In this document: piece by piece, positions 6,601 to 61,780 of the stretch | Layout of the letters: each line of letters starts with the position of its first letter | How positions within the stretch are numbered: position 1 is the stretch's first letter | Assembly (NCBI GenBank): GCA_026874595.1 | Contig: CM049313.1 | Coordinates: 12,335,508-12,399,507, forward strand | Direction: 5' to 3' | Length of the DNA: 64,000 nucleotides | From: Sipunculus nudus | Lineage: Eukaryota; Annelida; Sipuncula; Golfingiida; Sipunculidae | Notes under the pieces: model-generated | What the model saw: only the letters and a program-made list of their open reading frames with translations | What the model was told of the DNA's origin: nothing | Databases searched by the model: none | Program-made: the position numbers and the translations under genes

Positions 6601-6690
6601 ACAATAGCCTTGTGTTCTCTGTGTATCACGCTCAGGGGCGTAGCAATTAAGTCAGAGACAGTGCCTGCTTTTGTTACGGGCTGATTTCCG

Positions 6691-8345
6691 CCAACACCCG
6701 TATACATGTGAAGCATTTTGAATTCATTCATACAGAAGTCGACCATTTGGACTGCAGCAGCGACAACAAGCAACATTAGAGGAACCAGCTCACAGCATAA
6801 GGAAAACTTGCTAGTAGCATATATAGAGAAAGCTTCTATGAGAAGACTTATTTGTAAATATATACATATAAACTTATTTCATTAACTTTAACTGAAATTG
6901 ATTGAAAATATTGGTGGTGATTTCCATTAATGTAATTTTTAATGATACACATGGGCTAATACACACACTAGGGTTGTGTCCAAATGCAAACAATTAAGTA
7001 CATTTTCATTGAAATTAAAATGTATCAAATTAATCAAACGCAAATGCTATAAGATATAGTATTTATTGCCAATGCAAATTCGACAATATTTTCAAATGCA
7101 CATGCAATTAAAATTCATCTGCACTTTACTTCTATATTGTCACCTGACACTAAGAGTTATGTGTACAGTAATGATTTGCTCTTCGAATATAGAGCTGCTG
7201 AAACCATTATTATTTGATTGGTTCTAAGTGAAGCTTATTATTCTGAGATTGCATTCAATAACTGCATGCATTCAATTTTGAAAATGAAATAATCCCCTTC
7301 TCCATTTAATTGCAAATGCGCATTCTTAATGCTGATACATTTGCTTTTAAACCCATGCCTTACACACACACATGCGCGCGCAACTGAATAAGCTAAATTA
7401 TTATCACATACGACGTTGTTGTTAGCCTTGTGTATGATGGGATGTTATAAGGCCAAACAAAAAATGGTTGGGTTTCCGGGGTCTCCCCGAAACTACAGAT
7501 TCTCAGTATTAATTTTCGGACATTTCTTTCATGTAAATTAAAAAATAGAATAAAAATATCCATTATGTTATGACCTGTTCATTAAACAGTTTTGTTATTT
7601 TCATGATGTTACCTGATCACATGAAAATATCGAAAACATAATGATGGAAAGTTAAATAAACATTGCCCTCCTGTTCTGATTTCTGATAAAAAGTGCTTGA
7701 GATCCCAACCAGTTTTCTGCCTAAACCGTTGATAGTATAACCTTACAATTAAACATGTTACCCTTTTCAAATATTTGTGTGGAGGTGTATGAAAGGGGGG
7801 GGGGGGGGAGTACAGGTGAAATAGGGTCACTTCACTTAAATTTGCTACAGAGCAGCCCGATGATAAGGGAAAACAGAGAGTCACTGGTCAGTCTATTAGC
7901 ATACGACTCTAGGTGAGCACATGGCCAAACCCGTACTATTATCTATGTTGCGAGACTTATTAAGCTTTATACATTAAATGGCCATGACAAAGAACCAGGG
8001 GTATCAAGACTTATGTACTGGGCTGTAACTGATTGGAAATACTGTCAGCGTTGACACCTGGTCGGGGGGTGCAACTTTAAAATAACGTTTTGCTTCATGA
8101 GAAACGAGCTATTTTTAAACAATCCTTGATTTTTATGCCTGATTTAATAAAATCTTACCATATTTTTTTGGTTATTCTTCCACAGTTCGTGTGACAAGGA
8201 GTGCACTACGATGTCTGGTGTCACTACTACCAGCATATGGAAAGCATCGGGAGACAGCAGGCACTGTCTTTGCCTATTTTCTTGAAGAGAAAGAGGTTTG
8301 TTGCTTTACATTGATTTTTTTTTTAAATTTCATATTTTGGCGTAG
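6691..8345 (+). repeat. 1.65-kb tandem segment, copy A
   Basis: Homology to copies B and C begins at CCAACACCCGTATAC. Sequence before that point differs, so the array starts here. Contents in order: a block ending TTATTTGTAAATATATAC; an AT-rich stretch with repeated ATGCAAA-type words; a G run at 7796-7809; then the exon-like block at 8187-8300. Differences from B and C are scattered substitutions, small indels and homopolymer lengths, which suggests recent duplication. Confidence 0.9.
8187..8300 (+). other. exon-like block repeated in the 1.65-kb array
   Basis: A good acceptor (TTATTCTTCCACAG) precedes a frame reading RVTRSALRCLVSLLPAYG and then KHRETAGTVFAYFLEEKE. A weak donor (GAG|GTTTGT) may follow. 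The block recurs near 9861-9945, where 30 bases are deleted in frame, and near 11619-11715, where the frame ends in a stop right after YAYFL. I do not recognise the peptide. Retention of frame in three copies is suggestive but expected if the duplication is very recent. Confidence 0.3.
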
Positions 8346-9988
8346 CCAACAGCCGTATACATGTGAAGCATTTTGAATTCATGCATGCAGAAGTCGACCA
8401 TTGGGACTGCAGCAGCGACAACAAGCAACATTAGAGGAACCAGCTCACAGCATTAGGAAAACTTGCTAGTAGCATATATAGAGAAAGCTTCCATGAGAAG
8501 ACTTATTTGTAAATATATACATATAAACTTATTTCATTAACTTTAACTGAAATTGATTGAAAATATTGGTGGTGATTTCCATTAATGTAATTTTTAATGA
8601 TACACATGGGCTAATACACACACTAGGGTTGAGTTCAAATGCAAACAATTAAGTACATTTTCATTGAAATTAAAATGTATCAAATTAATCAAACGCAAAT
8701 GCTATAAGATATAGTATTTATTGCCAATGCAAATTCGACAATATTTTCAAATGCACATGCAATTAAAATTCATCTGCACTTTACTTCTATATTGTAACCT
8801 GACACTAAGAGTTATGTGTACAGTAATGATTTGCTCTTCGACTATAGAGCTGCTGAAACCATTATTGTTTGATTGGTTCTAAGTGAAGCTTTATATTCTG
8901 AGATTGCATTCAATAACTGCATGCATTCATATTTGAAAATGAAATAATCCCCTTCTCCTTTTAATTCCAAATGGGCCTTCTTAAATGCTAATTCATTTGC
9001 ATTTAAACCCAAGCCTTACACACACATGCACGGGCAACTGAATAAGCTAAATTATTATCACATACGACGTTGTTGTTAGCCTTGTGTATGATGGGATGTT
9101 ATAAGGCCAAACAAAAATTGGTTGGTTTTCAGGGGTCTCCCCCCCCCCCCCGAAACTACAGATTCTCAGTAGAAATTTTCGGACATTTCTTTCATGAAAA
9201 TTAAAAAAAAAGATTAAAAATATCCATTATGTTATGACCTGTTCAGCAAACAGTTTTGTTATTTTCATGATGTTACCTGATCACATGAAAATATCGAAAA
9301 CATAATGATGGAAAGTTAAATAAATATTGCCCTCCTGTTCTGATTTCTGATAAAAAGTGCTTGAGATCCCAACCAGTTTTCTGCCTAAAACCGTTGATAG
9401 TATAACCTTACAATTAAACATGTTACCCTTTTCAAATGTTTGTGTGGAGGTGTATGAAAGGGGGGGGGGACAGGTGAAATAGGGCCACTTCACTTAAATT
9501 TGCTACATAGCAGCCCGATGATAAGGGAAAACAGAGAGTCACTGGTCAGTCTATTAGCATACGACTCTAGGTGAGCACATGGCCAAACCCGTACTATTAT
9601 CTGCATGAGTTGCGAGATTTATGAAGCTTTATACATTAAATGGCCATGACAAAGAACCAGGTGTATCAAGACTTATGTACTGGGCTGTAACTGTCTGTAA
9701 AACACTGTCAGCGTTGACACCTCGTCGGGGGGGGGGGGGGGGGGTGCAACTTTAAAATAACGTTTTGCTTCATGAGAAACGAGCTATTTTAAACAATCCT
9801 TGATTTTTATGCCTGATTTAATAAAATCTTACCATATTTTTTTGGTTTTTCTTCCACAGTTCGTGTGACAAGGAGTGCATATGGAAAGCATCGGGAGACA
9901 ACAGGCACTGCCTATGCCTATTTTCTTGAAAATGAAAGAGGTTTTTTGCTTTACATTGATTTTTTTTATATTTCATATTTTGGCGTAG
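8346..9988 (+). repeat. 1.65-kb tandem segment, copy B
   Basis: Near-identical to copy A from GCCGTATACATGTGAAGC onward. Its C run (near 9139) and G runs (near 9461 and 9727) differ in length from those in A and C. Confidence 0.9.
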
Positions 9989-11715
9989 CCAACACGCGTA
10001 TACATGTGAAGCATTTTGAATTCATGCATGCAGAAGTCGACCATTTGGACTGCAGCAGCGACAACAAGCAACAGAGGAACCAGCTCACAGCATTAGGAAA
10101 ACTTGCTAGTAGCATATATAGAGGAAGCTTCTATGAGAAGACTTATTTGTAAATATATACATATAAACTTATTTCATTAACTTCGACATTAGAGGAACCA
10201 GCTCACAGCATTAGGAAAACTTGCTAGTAGCATATATAGAGAAAGCTTCTATGAGAAGACTTATTTGTAAATATATACATATAAACTTATTTCATTAACT
10301 TTAACTGAAATTGATTGAAAATATTGGTGGTGATTTCCATTAATGTAATTTTTAATGATACACATGGGCTAATACACACACTAGGGTTGAGTCCAAATGC
10401 AAACAATTAAGTACATTTTCATTGAAATTAAAATGTATCAAATTAATCAAACGCAAATGCTATAAGATATAGTATTTATTGCCAATGCAAATTCGACAAT
10501 ATTTTCAAATGCACATGCAATTAAAATTCATCTGCACTTTACTTCTATATTGTCACCTGACACTAAGAGTTATGTGTACAGTAATGATTTGCTCTTCGAC
10601 TATAGAGCTGCTGAAACCATTATTATTTGTTTGGTTCTAAGTGAAGCTTTTTATTCTGAGATTGCATTCAATAACTGCATGCATTCATATTTGAAAATGA
10701 AATAATCCCCTTCTCCATTAAATTCCAAATGCGCATTCTTAAATGCTAATTCATTTGCATTTAAACCCAAGCCTTACACACACACATGCACGGGCAACTG
10801 AATAAGCTAAATTATTATCACATACGACGTTGTTGTTAGCCTTGTGTATGATGGGAAGTTATAAGGCCAAACAAAAATTGGATGGGTTTCAGGGGTCTCC
10901 CCCCCACCTCCCCGAAACTACAGATTCTCAGTAGTAATTTTCGGACATTTCTTTCATGAAAATTAAAAAAATAGATTAAAAATATCCATTATGTTATGAC
11001 CTGTTTAGCAAACAGTTTTGTTATTTTCATGATGTTATCTGATCAAATGAAAATATCGAAAACATAATGATGGAAAGTTAAATAAATATTGCCCTCCTGT
11101 TCTGATTTCTGATAAAAAGTGCTTGAGATCCCAACCAGTTTTCTGCCTAAACCGTTGATAGTATAACCTTACAATTAAACATGTTACCCTTTTCAAATGT
11201 TTGTGTGGAGGTGTATGAAAGGGGGGGGGGGTACAGGTGAAATAGGGCCACTTCACTTAAATTTGCTACAGAGCAGCCCGATGATAAGGGAAAACAAAGA
11301 GTCACTGGTCAGTCTATTAGCATACGACTCTAGGTGAGCACATGGCCAAACCCGTACTATTATCTGCGTGAGTTGCGAGATTTATGAAGCTTTATACATT
11401 AAATGGCCATGACAAAGAACCAGGGGTATCAAGACTTATGTACTGGGCTGTAACTGTCTGGAAACACTGTCAGCGTTGACACCTGGTCGGGGGGGGGGGA
11501 GGGGTGCAACTTTAAAATAACGTTTTGCTTCATGAGAAACGAGCTATTTTAAACAATTCTTGATTTTTATGCCTGATTTAATAAAATCTTACCATATTTT
11601 TTGGTTTTTCTTCCACAGTTCGTATGACAAGGAGTGCACTACGATGTCTGGTGTCACTACTACCAGCATATGGAAAGCATCGGGAGACAGCAGGCACTGT
11701 CTATGCCTATTTTCT
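9989..11715 (+). repeat. 1.65-kb tandem segment, copy C, with a 118-bp internal duplication
   Basis: Matches A and B, but the block 10073-10190 is followed directly by a second copy at 10191-10308. Homology stops just after TATGCCTATTTTCT near 11715; beyond it the sequence is unique, marking the right end of the array. Confidence 0.9.
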
Positions 11716-14829: not shown

Positions 14830-15674
14830 TGTTTATCTGTGATAAGCGTGTTATCTTATGACAGATATATTGAGTGGATGATATTGAATGGACGAAGATC
14901 CAAAAATACAGACAATATTACGGTAAATATTTCAGAAACCGAAACATCTAAAACTTAGTGACGAAGTAAATATAACAAGGCTATTTCTTTTTCTTTTTAT
15001 TTTATTTCATTTACATTTTAAGAAAACTTGTATATTATTTGCATAAATACAAGAATATATTAAAAATGGTTTAAACCTGATATTGATGAGCCACAAAATA
15101 AAAAAAAGTAGAAATTATAATTCTTGAATGAATCTGTTAAAAATATATTGAATTGTACCCCATTCTAGCTCCGATCGAATTATTCTCTTCTCCGAAAGTA
15201 TATATATATATGCAATTTGGTAACCCCTTGATCAATGTACAATTAAATTTCACGTGTCACATTATATGTTTTAAAACCTTTTATTTATTTTTTTTCAGAA
15301 CCACGTATATGCATATATATACACATGAATGGATTCAAAAAAGCCTTTGATAAATCATTATAGCAATTCCGCCATATGGTCAAGCTAAAATGATAACAGG
15401 TTCCCTTAAAATGAATAAAAATACAAAGGTGAAGCTTGTATTGTTGTGCAATATTCCTGATTGCTGTAACACTAATGTTTGTCCTTCTGTTATTGGTGTA
15501 TGGATTATCTTCCAACCACCATCCTTATGGACTGACCTGACTCCTTCTATGATAGTTGTGCTGCGGTTTTAGTATATTAATAAAGAAATGATATCTAGAA
15601 CACGATTTGTCCTACTGAATGCCCCAAGCTTTCGATAAATAATGCTCCAGTATATCCCTTCTTTAGGAATGTTG
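14830..15674. other. AT-rich flank, probably containing the 3'UTR of the minus-strand gene
   Basis: The first polyadenylation signal on the minus strand below the stop codon at 15675 is AATAAA, read from TTTATT near 15281-15286, about 390 bases on. This would give a 3'UTR of about 400 bases. No other element is visible. Confidence 0.35.
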
Positions 15675-16604
15675 TCAGATATATTGATAATTGTTGCTCC
15701 TCCTAAGATTCCTGCAGCAGCACAAGAATTGTATGCATAGCACCACCAAAAGGATACAGCCAAGTATTATAGCGGAGAAATCCCCAGTTCCAAAGTGGAC
15801 ATCTACATGAATAAGGTGACCTGCAATATTATGGAAAATGTACTTAATTTAGTGTATATATATATATATGTGTTTATAAATAAATATAAATTATTCTAAC
15901 ATTTTCGAAAATTTTTGGTTACCAATTCTGGTAAACCCCACACGATCATTTTTAAAACTTTGTGTATTGTTAGCTGTTTGTAAATTATATTATGGAATAA
16001 TGCCCTACGTTTTGCTCGCAATCTACATCTCTAAAGTATAATGTTGCATAACTACACTATTTTGTCTGATCAATAACGTAAGATGGATGAAAACAGTTTT
16101 AAATCCAGTATTCGTGTAAAACACTTCCTACATATAAAAATATAAAAATATAAAACCATACCACATTTTTCAGTGCATTCTTCCTGGGTTTCAAAATATC
16201 TATCAGTGTGTGACGTGATATTAACATGGATTTCCTGACAAGTGCCTGTAGGGGTGATAGTGACTACAACGCAGCTTTTTGACCATTCCATGCATTCCCA
16301 GAAATTTAATTCGAATGTAGCACCTTCATTTCCTGAAGTGAGACGAATTGACTCTTACTGAGATGTAACTGGGATGCTAAATAAATTAGTGAATGACAAT
16401 TATTTATTAAGAATTTGTCACATTATACATTTTTGTATGCGTAGGAAGAACCTTTAGAAAAAGTCTTACAACAAAATGACGTTCAATTTAAATATAATTC
16501 TAGATCTATGAATTAAAAAAAGTTCTACCTTGGTTTGCCGCGTAGACACTGATGGGAAATAATAAGGCAGATGTTATGACAAGACGGAGGACCCATGGGA
16601 CCAT
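15675..16604 (-). CDS. single-pass membrane protein with a degenerate Kunitz-like ectodomain (3 exons)
   Basis: Exons are 16604-16529, 16332-16162 and 15820-15675 on the minus strand. Donors are CAAG|GTAGAAC and TGTG|GTATGG; acceptors are CACTTCAG and ATATTGCAG. Both introns (196 and 341 bases) are phase 1 and the frame stays open for 130 codons. The ATG sits in GCCATCATGG, with an in-frame TGA upstream. Residues 1-22 form a signal peptide ending VYA|AN. Residues about 27-95 are the ectodomain with Cys39, 46, 57, 78 and 82 and one N-glycosylation sequon (Asn63). Residues about 98-118 are a membrane helix. The tail has Cys116-118, a basic stretch and a C-terminal YQYI. Cys57-Gln, Phe72, Cys78 and Cys82 match BPTI Cys30-Gln31, Phe45, Cys51 and Cys55 in spacing, and 1-1 exons are usual for Kunitz domains. 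The Cys14-Cys38 pair is absent, so protease inhibition is doubtful. Role unknown. Confidence 0.82.
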
Positions 16605-23917: not shown

Positions 23918-24640
23918 AGCTAACCACGATATCACTGTGATATCATTAGAGAGTCATGGATGTGAGTTCACTACTGTGAACCCACTGTGAACTCATGGTT
24001 AACTAACTGCAGTGAGTTCATGTCTGTTACACAACAGTGAGTTCACAGTGATATCACAGAGTGACGTCAAAAATGTGACACAACAGTGAATTCACAACTG
24101 TGGGCTCAAAGTGATATCATAGCATGAGTTTATGTCTGTTACAAAACAGTGAGTTCACAGTGATATCAGAGGATGACGTCAAAAATGTGACACCACAGTG
24201 AATTCACAACCGTGAGTTCACAGTGGTATCATGGCATGAGTTCACAGTGATATCACAGGATGACGTCAAAGAATGTGACACCATGGTGAATTCACAACTG
24301 TGGGCTCAAAGTGATATCATAGCATGAATTCATGTCTGTTACACAACAGTGAGTTCACAGTGATATCAGAGGATGACGTCAAAAATGTGACACCACAGTG
24401 AATTCACAACCGTGAGTTCACAGTGGTATCATGGCATGAGTTCACAGTGATATCACAGGATGACGTCAAAAAATGTGACACCATGGTGAATTCACAACTG
24501 TGGGCTCAAAGTGATATCATAGCATGAGTTTATGTCTGTTACACAACAGTGAGTTCACAGTGATATCAGAGGATGACGTCAAAAATGTGACACCCTGGTG
24601 AATTCACAACGGTGAGCTCACAGTGATATCATGGCAGATA
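23918..24640. repeat. higher-order tandem array with an exact 200-bp period
   Basis: Two related monomers of about 87 and 113 bases alternate. TGACGTCA occurs at 24062, 24174, 24261, 24374, 24461 and 24574; 24174 to 24374 to 24574, and 24261 to 24461, are exactly 200 apart. GATATC, TTCACAGTGATATC and CACAACTGTG words with inverted symmetry fill each unit. Confidence 0.9.
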
Positions 24641-25847: not shown

Positions 25848-26256
25848 AAGGGACCCATGGGTCACGGCACTCTGCTGTTATATATGATAAAAAATATGAT
25901 TTGGGAAAGAGGCACATGCTTGTTTTGTGTGGTAGTAAATATAAGCTTTATTATGAGTTGTTGGTGTTTAGCTTATGTATGATTTTGATAGTATCTTTGG
26001 AGACAGGGAAGAGGATTGATTTCATTTATTTTATTAACAAATTGAGTGCTATTGTCAAACAGATTTTGACTTGGCCATATAACTTATAAGCAGCACATAT
26101 TATAAAAGAGTTTAACTATTTATTAAAATTTAATACCAAATATTGTGCCAATATAATTTTTATTAAAAAAAAATAATAAGAAAATCATATGATTTTTTAA
26201 AATAAGATATAGCTGAAATGATTATTGAAATAATATTATAGAATATATTCATGAAT

Positions 26257-26954
26257 GCATTCATGAATACATTTTGAAAGTATCTGCACTGGTATTCAAA
26301 TACTTTCATTTTTACCTGAATTCCCATTCTTATGCAATAAATTTTTTTAATGCAGTACATATTCATATTTAAATACATTTGCAAAGCATTCGCACCTTGT
26401 CTAGTATTTATTCAGTTTTAGCCAAACAAAGATGTTGAGAATCCAGAATATACAAAATTCACAAATTTAAATAATGATCATAAGTACCTGGTTTTATGGC
26501 TTTTATCTATATTATAAAAAATAAATGTAATATATTCACTTTGGACTACTTTCACATCAATCTACACACTAGACACAGTAGGAATCTAGATTAATATTAT
26601 CAACTGCATTCATGAATACATTTTGAAAGTATCTGCACTGGTATTCAAATACTTTCATTTTTACCTGAATTCCCATTCTTATGCAATAATTTTTTTAATG
26701 CAGTACATATTCATATTTAAATACATTTGCAAAGCATTCGCACCTTGTCTAGTATTTATTCAGTTTTAGCCAAACAAAGATGTTGAGAATCCAGAATATA
26801 CAAAATTCACAAATTTAAATAATGATCATAAGTACCTGGTTTTATGGCTTTTATCTATATTATAAAAAATAAATGTAATATATTCACTTTGGACTACTTT
26901 CACATCAATCTACACACTAGACACAGTAGGAATCTAGATTAATATTATCAACTG
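26257..26954 (+). repeat. 349-bp direct tandem duplication inside HINE copy 2
   Basis: 26257-26605 and 26606-26954 are almost identical over 349 bases. The clear difference is one base in an A/T run (ATAAATTTTTTT against ATAATTTTTTT). The junction carries TGCATTCATGAAT, also present before the first copy, so short homology may have driven it. Confidence 0.92.
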
Positions 26955-27547
26955 CATCTTTGTCTATCATTAATTTACTTCATATGATCCCTAATGATTA
27001 GTAATGAATAATATGATTTATTTTTTTATCATTAAAATTTCACTGATAAATACCATAGGTGACTGCATAGTGTCATTTGGAATAACATTGACATTGACAT
27101 TCTATCCGTCCATACAAGATTCTTACATCATCAGTAACTGCAAGTTAATTTTCTATTATTCATCAACTAACAAATTCCTTTTCTACTAATTTTTCTTAAT
27201 TTGTTATGAAAAACCAAAACAAAATTATTAATTTATATTGTTTATTGTTATATGTTGTTTTTCAAAACAACTACTAGATGAGTTAGATTGGACACCTGGA
27301 TCACCTGTGGCTGGGCATTAGCTGCCTGGCTGCCCCAGTGTATGCTTCGCTCAAGCATGCATAATCTGATGAAAGGTCAACAAGGTCAACATACAGGTGA
27401 CTGAAGAGGGGCTGGATTAAGCCTAGGTCTGACATGGTCTCATAAAAACATTAATAAAAGCTACAATTTTTGGCCATTTTCTTTCAGTTTTCTAAACTAG
27501 AAAGCTGAAATCCTTTTGTGCGCATGATATAAAAATTATATCAACAG

Positions 27548-60235: not shown

Positions 60236-61780
60236 CACGGTAGGTTAAATTCAGCTAAAGCGCGGGGTTTTATTCAATTAGAGTTCGGGTTTATATTCAA
60301 ATGTTGTGAGGCCGCTTTAATTAAATCATAGCTTGGTCGGTTTTATTAAGATTAAATTTAGACGGTTATATTCAGACAAAGCGCGGCCGGCTATATTCAG
60401 TTAAAAAATGGCTGGTTATATTCAGATATATCACGGTCCGTTATATTCAGATATAGCCCGGTCCGTTATATTCAGATATAGCACGGCCCGTTATTTTCAG
60501 ATATATCACGGTCCGTTATATTCAGACATAGCACGGCCCGTAATATTCACGTAGAACACGGCCCGTTATATTCAGATATAGCATGGCCCGTTATATTCAG
60601 ATATAGCACGGCCCGTTATATTCAGATATAGCACGGCCCGTTATATTCAGTAAAACACGGCCCGTTATATTCAGGTAGAGCACGGCCCGTTATATTCAGA
60701 CATAGCACGGCCCGTTATATTCAGATATGGCATGGCCCGTTATATTCAGATATAGCACGGCCCGTTATATTCAGACATAGCACGGCCCGTAATATTCACG
60801 TAGAACACGGCCCGTTATATTCAGATATAGCATGTCCCGTTATATTCAGATATAGCACGGCCCGTTATATTCAGATATAGCACGGCCCGTTATATTCAGG
60901 TAGAACACGGCCCGTTATATTCAGGTAGAGCACGGCCCGTTATATTCAGACACAGCACGGCCCGTTATATTCAGGTATAGCACGGCCCGTTATATTCAGA
61001 TATGGCATGGTCCGTTATATTCAGATATAGCACGGCCCGTTATATTCAGGTAGACACGATCCGTTATATTCAGATATAGCAGGGTCCGTTATATTCAGAT
61101 ATAGCACGGCCCGTTATATTCAGATATAGCACGGCCCGTTATATTCAGGTAGAGCAAGGCCCGTTATATTCAGACGTAGCACGGCCCGTTATATTCAGAT
61201 ATAGCACGGCCCGTTATATTCAGATGTAGCACGGCCCGTTATATTCAGACAGAGCACGGCCCGTTATATTCAGACAGAGCACGGCCCGTTATATTCAGAC
61301 AGAGCACGGCCCGTTATATTCAGATGTAGCACAGCCCGTTATATTCAGACAGAGCACGGCCGGTTATATTCAGATATAGCACAGCCCGTTATTTTCATAT
61401 AGAGCACGGCCCGTTATATTCAGGTAGAGCACGGCCCGTTATAATCAGATATGGCACGGCCCATTTTATTCAGGTAGAGCACGGCCCGTTATATTCAGAT
61501 ATAGGATGGCCCGTTATATTCAGATATAGCACGGCCCGTTATATTCATATAGAGCACGGCCCGTTATATTCAGACATAGCACGGCCCGTTATATTCAGGT
61601 AAAGCACGGCACGTTATATTCAGACATAGCACGGCCCGTTATATTCAGGTATAGCACGGCCCGTTATATTCAGATATAGCACGGCCCGTTATATTCAGAT
61701 ATAGCACGGCCCGTTATATTCAGGTAGAGCACGGCCCGTTATATTCAGATATAGCACGGCCCGTAATATTCGTGTAGAAA
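60236..61780 (+). repeat. 25-bp minisatellite, about 60 units
   Basis: The unit is GCACGGCCCGTTATATTCAG plus five variable bases (ATATA, GTAGA, ACATA, ACAGA). The first six or so units are strongly diverged and the rest nearly uniform. A 25-base unit rotates through all frames, so it cannot encode a simple repeat protein. There are no unique spacers. Confidence 0.95.

Follow-up and report, generated by a model that had tools for sequence, protein, structure and literature searches.

The window analysed here, a stretch of 64,000 nucleotides, corresponds to C8:12335508-12399507 of a 1.43-Gb genome in 153 contigs. Its minus strand very probably carries a real three-exon gene, which appears to be one member of an old tandem pair. 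The predicted product is a single-pass type I membrane glycoprotein that would retain about 108 residues once its signal is cleaved off. The gene and its predicted product comprise the following features:

16529..16604, minus strand: exon 1, 76 nt, with the start codon at 16604-16602 and a phase 1 end before the donor GTAGAA
within exon 1, minus strand: putative signal peptide, residues about 1-22, limits set by eye
16333..16528, minus strand: intron 1, 196 bp, GT-AG, phase 1
16162..16332, minus strand: exon 2, 171 nt, phase 1 at both ends, coding for the ectodomain
15821..16161, minus strand: intron 2, 341 bp, GT-AG, phase 1
15675..15820, minus strand: exon 3, 146 nt, coding for stalk, membrane helix and tail, with the stop codon TGA at 15677-15675
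15714..15779, minus strand: predicted membrane helix FSAIILGCILLVVLCIQFLCCC, from hydrophobicity with limits set by eye, CCC cluster at its end
15678..15689, minus strand: C-terminal YQYI, fitting a YXX-phi sorting signal
15280..15289, minus strand: candidate poly(A) signals, overlapping AATAAA motifs starting 385 and 389 nt past the stop

Splicing and translation of the three exons yields 393 nt, i.e., 130 codons plus TGA, and the coordinates given in the original prediction proved exact to the base. Its description of consensus splice sites and phase-1 joins that produce one 130-codon frame was likewise borne out, and the sequence supports its reading of the product, a small type I membrane protein encoded by three exons with phase-1 joins. 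The remark that no exon forms an obvious long ORF is correct; exon 2 nonetheless lies within a 94-codon open frame. The start codon has the context GCCATCATGG, and an in-frame TGA is the tenth codon upstream of it. Scored with approximate weight matrices, donor 1 (AAG/GTAGAA) is weak at position +5 (0.43), and the remaining three splice sites score 2.4, 3.7, and 4.6. In-frame alternative acceptors inside exons 2 and 3 were proposed by the gene builder described below at 16245 and 15802 of the minus strand; use of the former would remove about 29 ectodomain residues including two cysteines.

How often such a structure occurs by chance was estimated with a gene builder that combines a start codon and hydrophobic first exon, an open middle exon, and a last exon with a membrane helix. 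At strict limits, requiring splice scores at least as high as the weakest observed, it returned two chains on the minus strand of the window, both at the locus of this gene, and none on the plus strand. Among simulated one-strand, 64-kb third-order Markov sequences, a chain appeared in none of 60 and one of 221 (1/281 together). Looser limits gave chains in 20 of 300 simulations. In the window they gave four chains on the minus strand, which all map to this locus and vary in their acceptors (16332/16245 and 15820/15802), and none on the plus strand. Since the limits were chosen after the gene had been seen and the splice matrices are approximate, the rarity of such chains is only moderate evidence. 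The statement that this is the only complete gene in the 64 kb holds for genes of this three-exon type, for which chains were built at this locus alone. The window contains 92 stop-to-stop frames of at least 75 codons; when the 10 longest were compared with Pfam, eight had no match at E values up to 0.1, and the other two had one weak match each, below cut-off (E 0.0078 and 0.046).

The first exon reaches a hydrophobicity mean of 2.55 over 8 residues, and the top 19-residue Kyte-Doolittle mean of exon 3 is 2.99, so that, by hydrophobicity, the predicted protein combines a cleavable signal with a single membrane helix as expected of type I single-pass proteins. The ectodomain and stalk together span about 74 residues with five cysteines (C39, C46, C57, C78, and C82, all in exon 2) and one N-glycosylation sequon, N63-I-T, also in exon 2. 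The tail has 12 residues, and YQYI lies eight residues past the CCC cluster. No Pfam family scored above cut-off for the spliced protein. Two entries below cut-off were rejected, namely a Wntless-like membrane region (E 0.0031), whose 17.3 bits fall short of the required 28.3, and TraW_N (E 0.27). In viral contigs, exon 2 alone as query gave five pattern-matching stretches, none of them confirmed. Among the titles and abstract beginnings listed from the open-licence literature on this type of gene in molluscs, none describes it.

A search of the genome at the DNA level yielded 33 matches, among which the gene itself was the only one exceeding a piece; the other 32 are short stretches, all within intron 2. 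As there is no second DNA copy, the gene is not a common transposon, within the scope of a search that passes over simple repeats and words of very high frequency. At the protein level, seven matches were found, namely the three exons themselves and four others with E values of 0.02 to 0.74. The best of these four is located on C4 (E 0.020); the second best (E 0.028) lies on C8, on the same strand as the window gene, 17-18 kb from it and 1.6 kb outside the window. By simple arithmetic, one of four random places in 1.43 Gb would fall within 25 kb in about 1/7000 cases. The following sibling gene could be assembled around this match:

C8:12333875-12332605, same strand as the window gene: sibling gene, three exons, 149 residues
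C8:12333875-12333773: sibling exon 1 (proposed), phase 1 join
C8:12333278-12333117: sibling exon 2, phase 1 join
C8:12332789-12332605: sibling exon 3

In a one-to-one blastp comparison, the two proteins share 29% identity over 97 residues (E 5e-16). Exon 2 scores 95 against the sibling, compared with a maximum of 53 in 2000 cysteine-fixed shuffles, and exon 3 scores 63, where 2000 shuffles that kept membrane and non-membrane residues in their own blocks did not exceed 60. Common to both proteins are the motifs F-W-x-C-x-x-W-S-x-x-C and T-D-x-x-F-x5-C-x-E-K-C, four ectodomain cysteines, H-x-G ahead of the helix, and C, R-N, and S-N at or beyond its end; their N-x-T sequons lie one alignment column apart. 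Both genes have three exons joined in phase 1, and both products have a membrane helix as well as the F-W and W-S motifs. It differs in a longer tail, which has ESRPLFG instead of YQYI, lacks a C-terminal YXX-phi and ends in SCT, and in the absence of the fifth cysteine, which in the window copy is part of a 7-residue insertion. No significant similarity was found between exon 1 and the proposed exon 1 of the sibling (412 of 2000 shuffles scored as high), which makes the latter the least certain part of the sibling model. Signal peptides change fast. The first three splice sites of the sibling score poorly (-2.5, -1.5, and -1.7) and would fail the builder limits, and the reverse search with the sibling as query recovered window exon 2 only at E 1.15. 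Pfam contains no family above cut-off for the sibling, and a match to DUF7248 (E 0.99) was taken for chance.

Further relatives were sought near the gene and in the rest of the genome. In the 282 kb around the gene, no additional match better than E 0.05 was obtained; one search with exon 3 as query missed sibling exon 3, which was the top non-self match (E 8.6e-4) when exon 3 was run alone. Sibling exon 3 matches C16:8705415-8705594 (E 0.0019; 76% DNA identity over 84 bp), with stops inside. About 1 kb upstream, an exon 2 end, TGLHFSSQGICEEKC, is found before GTAAGG, and a TGA closes the frame before this remnant; a search of the 4 kb upstream did not recover the remainder of the exon. Past its stop, the C16 copy shows ESRPLIG, resembling ESRPLFG of the sibling tail. 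Window exon 3 resembles this copy weakly and without clear significance, 38 of 2000 shuffles reaching the same score. On its sequence, we take the C16 copy for a decayed third member of the family. Further weak matches occur on C4 (two), C9, C11, and C8, all of them interrupted by stops except C4:89126855-89127013, and no second matching exon was found within the 3 kb examined beside them. C4:89126855-89127013 (plus strand) is an open frame with 40% identity across the exon 2/exon 3 border and no intron (E 0.02); the surrounding 8 kb contain no further matching parts, and the place may be either a chance match or a decayed processed copy.

In its C-terminal half, the ectodomain resembles Kunitz domains. 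The window protein has a C-x20-C-x3-C arrangement with the spacing of C3-C6 of BPTI but without C4, and both proteins contain the C-terminal segment F-x-[ST]-x-x-x-C-x3-C (YFETQEECTEKC and HFLSRKKCEEKC). Phase-1 introns bounding the domain exon are typical of Kunitz proteins and flank this exon in the window gene as well as in its sibling. This flanking is a weak sign of Kunitz origin, because extracellular modules often have it, according to the available part of PMC1626468. In likeness to Kunitz/BPTI (PF00014), a signal exon is followed by a small domain exon entered in phase 1, the domain ends in F-x-T-x-E-E-C-x3-C, and the window copy has the C3-x20-C5-x3-C6 spacing of BPTI. Unlike Kunitz proteins, both lack the six cysteines in their usual spacing, the window protein having five (C4 missing, C2 displaced) and the sibling four (C3 missing as well); the C2-C3 loop falls short of that in BPTI by 5 residues, there is no F-x-Y-G-G-C core, and a membrane helix stands behind the domain.

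Profile comparisons gave mixed results. PF00014 (cut-off 21 bits), which detected nine of nine Kunitz domains as a control, matched neither the spliced protein nor exon 2 at E values up to 10, and did not match the sibling either. A home-made HMM built from nine Kunitz domains gave the spliced protein 8.4 bits, within the random range, as the 15 best of 100 simulated windows reached 9.8 to 12.4 bits. By hhalign against the nine domains, a probability of 80% was obtained (E 1.4e-5, from a single comparison over 29 columns); with other settings the probability was 10% (E 7.4e-4) at a score of 20.2. Shuffles, the sole controls, all stayed below this score, reaching at most 12.6 when the cysteines were fixed (150 shuffles) and 10.3 when they were not (150 full shuffles). 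A search of the PDB with the full protein listed a designed helical protein first (E 0.62), followed by Ixolaris (0.96) and Boophilin (1.1), both Kunitz proteins. Exon 2 alone retrieved no Kunitz protein; it matched two sequences of CD38 and one interleukin-1 receptor-like protein, with E values of 1.6-1.9. A profile of the two genes had Ixolaris as its sole match (E 0.035 for the whole sequence, 3.1 and 26 for its domains singly), and the corresponding exon 2 profile matched Ixolaris at E 2.9. We regard the PDB matches as a hint that falls short of proof. Given these mixed tests and the missing Kunitz features, we class the ectodomain as possibly Kunitz-derived, and not as a Kunitz protein; Kunitz descent itself seems to us to have slightly less than an even chance.

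A published precedent is human SPINT4, a single-domain Kunitz protein which, according to the available part of PMC3209443, lacks the fifth cysteine and retains two of three disulfides; assayed as a recombinant protein against eight proteases, it inhibited none. A protein can thus be named Kunitz with one cysteine missing. The SPINT proteins described in that paper have no N-x-T sequon, which the window protein does possess. Kunitz domains are very common in the genome (150 scored among 221 candidates, those listed all lying above the Pfam cut-off), so raw material would have been at hand. By eye, about 110 of the 150 are on C3, mostly in a few clusters at about 38.8-39.4, 49.3-49.6, 61.7-61.9, 68.9, 70.1-70.4, and 77.6 Mb. 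Within the window, a 39-codon open frame at 51083-50967 (minus strand) shows a 23-residue match to the middle of the Kunitz domain, without its C-terminal half; its 15.5 bits are the best of the window, the best of 100 simulated windows reaching 12.4, and the fragment may be either a relic or due to chance.

LAMP-type glycoproteins generally combine type I topology, N-glycans, and a short YXX-phi tail. The predicted protein is similar in its type I topology, N-glycan sequon, and very short tail ending in YXX-phi, and dissimilar in its outer part of only about 74 residues, its other cysteine pattern, and the lack of a G before the Y. No match to the LAMP luminal domain was found in Pfam at E values up to 10, a range in which HMMER filters may hide weak ones. 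The YXX-phi sorting signal, with the consensus (G)YXX-phi at the tail end, is defined in the available part of PMC5297682, which also gives GYQTI as the end of LAMP1. YQYI at the end of a short tail fits this consensus, the optional G being absent, even though a four-residue motif of this kind can arise by chance. The sibling motif ESRPLFG is near a [D/E]XXXL[L/I] signal, from which ESRPLF is one residue off, and in the C16 copy ESRPLI follows the stop. By inference only, the two tail types may point to one and the same route.

Starting from the observed exon layout, the phase-1 joins, and the similarity of exons 2 and 3 to the sibling, the behavior of the protein can be inferred as follows, its tail giving the best hint. 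The signal peptide would send the chain into the ER, and the small ectodomain would face outward, N-glycosylated and held by two disulfides between the four cysteines that the sibling also has. The fifth cysteine, in the 7-residue insertion, may be free or link two chains. The helix would anchor the protein, its CCC cluster perhaps being palmitoylated. YQYI would be read by clathrin adaptors, so that the protein would be taken from the surface or the trans-Golgi to endosomes and lysosomes; we consider such routing an even prospect. The product, likely an endocytosed type I membrane glycoprotein, would be small, would bind a partner, and would work at the cell surface or in lysosomes; its ectodomain may descend from a Kunitz exon that lost the protease-binding loop. 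Taken as a whole, the account of a real type I glycoprotein gene of a tandem pair, together with the proposed route, appears to us somewhat probable.

That the window gene is real can be stated with high confidence, very probably so because a related gene with the same three-part layout adjoins the window, decisive evidence that lay out of sight of the original prediction; the two would form an old gene pair, itself very probably real. The available part of PMC1626468 reports that phase-1 introns are in excess near the signal cleavage site of secreted proteins, and the phase-1 layout was counted in favor of a real gene. Chance splicing of three unrelated open stretches is favored by the weak donor 1 and by the false positives of the ab initio builder at looser limits, but the near absence of chains in simulations at the observed limits and, above all, a sibling 17 kb away on the same strand, whose exons 2 and 3 are similar and correctly ordered, render this explanation highly improbable. 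A recently dead window copy of a real family is very unlikely: the C16 copy, with a stop in its exon 3 match and a TGA before the exon 2 remnant, is visibly broken, and the insertion and fifth cysteine set the window copy apart from its sibling, but its 130 codons are open, and splice sites, start context, stop, and poly(A) signals are all present.

The remaining alternatives concern what the gene encodes. The C-terminal resemblance to Kunitz domains and the abundance of such domains in the genome would suit a membrane-tethered Kunitz-type protease inhibitor, a reading that we regard as improbable in view of the lacking Pfam Kunitz match, the missing C4, the shortened C2-C3 loop, the absence of C3 in the sibling, and a profile score of 8.4 bits where at least 15 of 100 random windows attain 9.8 or more. 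Part of a larger gene with more 5' exons or alternative forms is what the three exons would be if small first exons, which are hard to exclude, had been missed; the builder does permit the in-frame acceptors 16245 and 15802, but the good start context, the hydrophobic signal-like stretch directly after it, and the upstream in-frame TGA make this rather unlikely. As to the origin of the family, we tentatively propose, while regarding it as doubtful, that it is restricted to this lineage and arose when a Kunitz exon became fused between signal and membrane-anchor exons and then lost the inhibitory loop and two of six cysteines, to serve now as a two-disulfide recognition module on a lysosome-routed, receptor-like protein.

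Judged from its sequence, the gene is of an ordinary kind, one of a tandem pair encoding small type I membrane proteins for which Pfam has no family. Its interest could be raised by the Kunitz link alone: if this descent is true, an abundant inhibitor module was stripped to two disulfides and put to new use. The case also illustrates that raw sequence alone can yield short multi-exon genes outside Pfam, which a neighboring paralog then supports.

The surroundings contain several mobile-element traces and repeats. An open frame with a reverse transcriptase domain is located at C8:12326501-12327868 (plus strand), about 5 kb beyond the sibling. About 7 kb past the right end of the window, at C8:12406143-12407906 (minus strand) and neighboring positions, a single open frame combines domains of reverse transcriptase, RNase H, and integrase, in an order that suggests a Ty3/gypsy-like retrotransposon. 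Within the window, a unit of about 1.7 kb occurs in three head-to-tail copies that are 93-95% alike (6690-11715). Two tandem arrays have periods of 200 bp (24038-24636; 3 copies, 95%) and 348 bp (26256-26957; 2 copies, 99%), and a minisatellite at 60365-61771 comprises 56 copies of a 25-bp unit with 87% matches.
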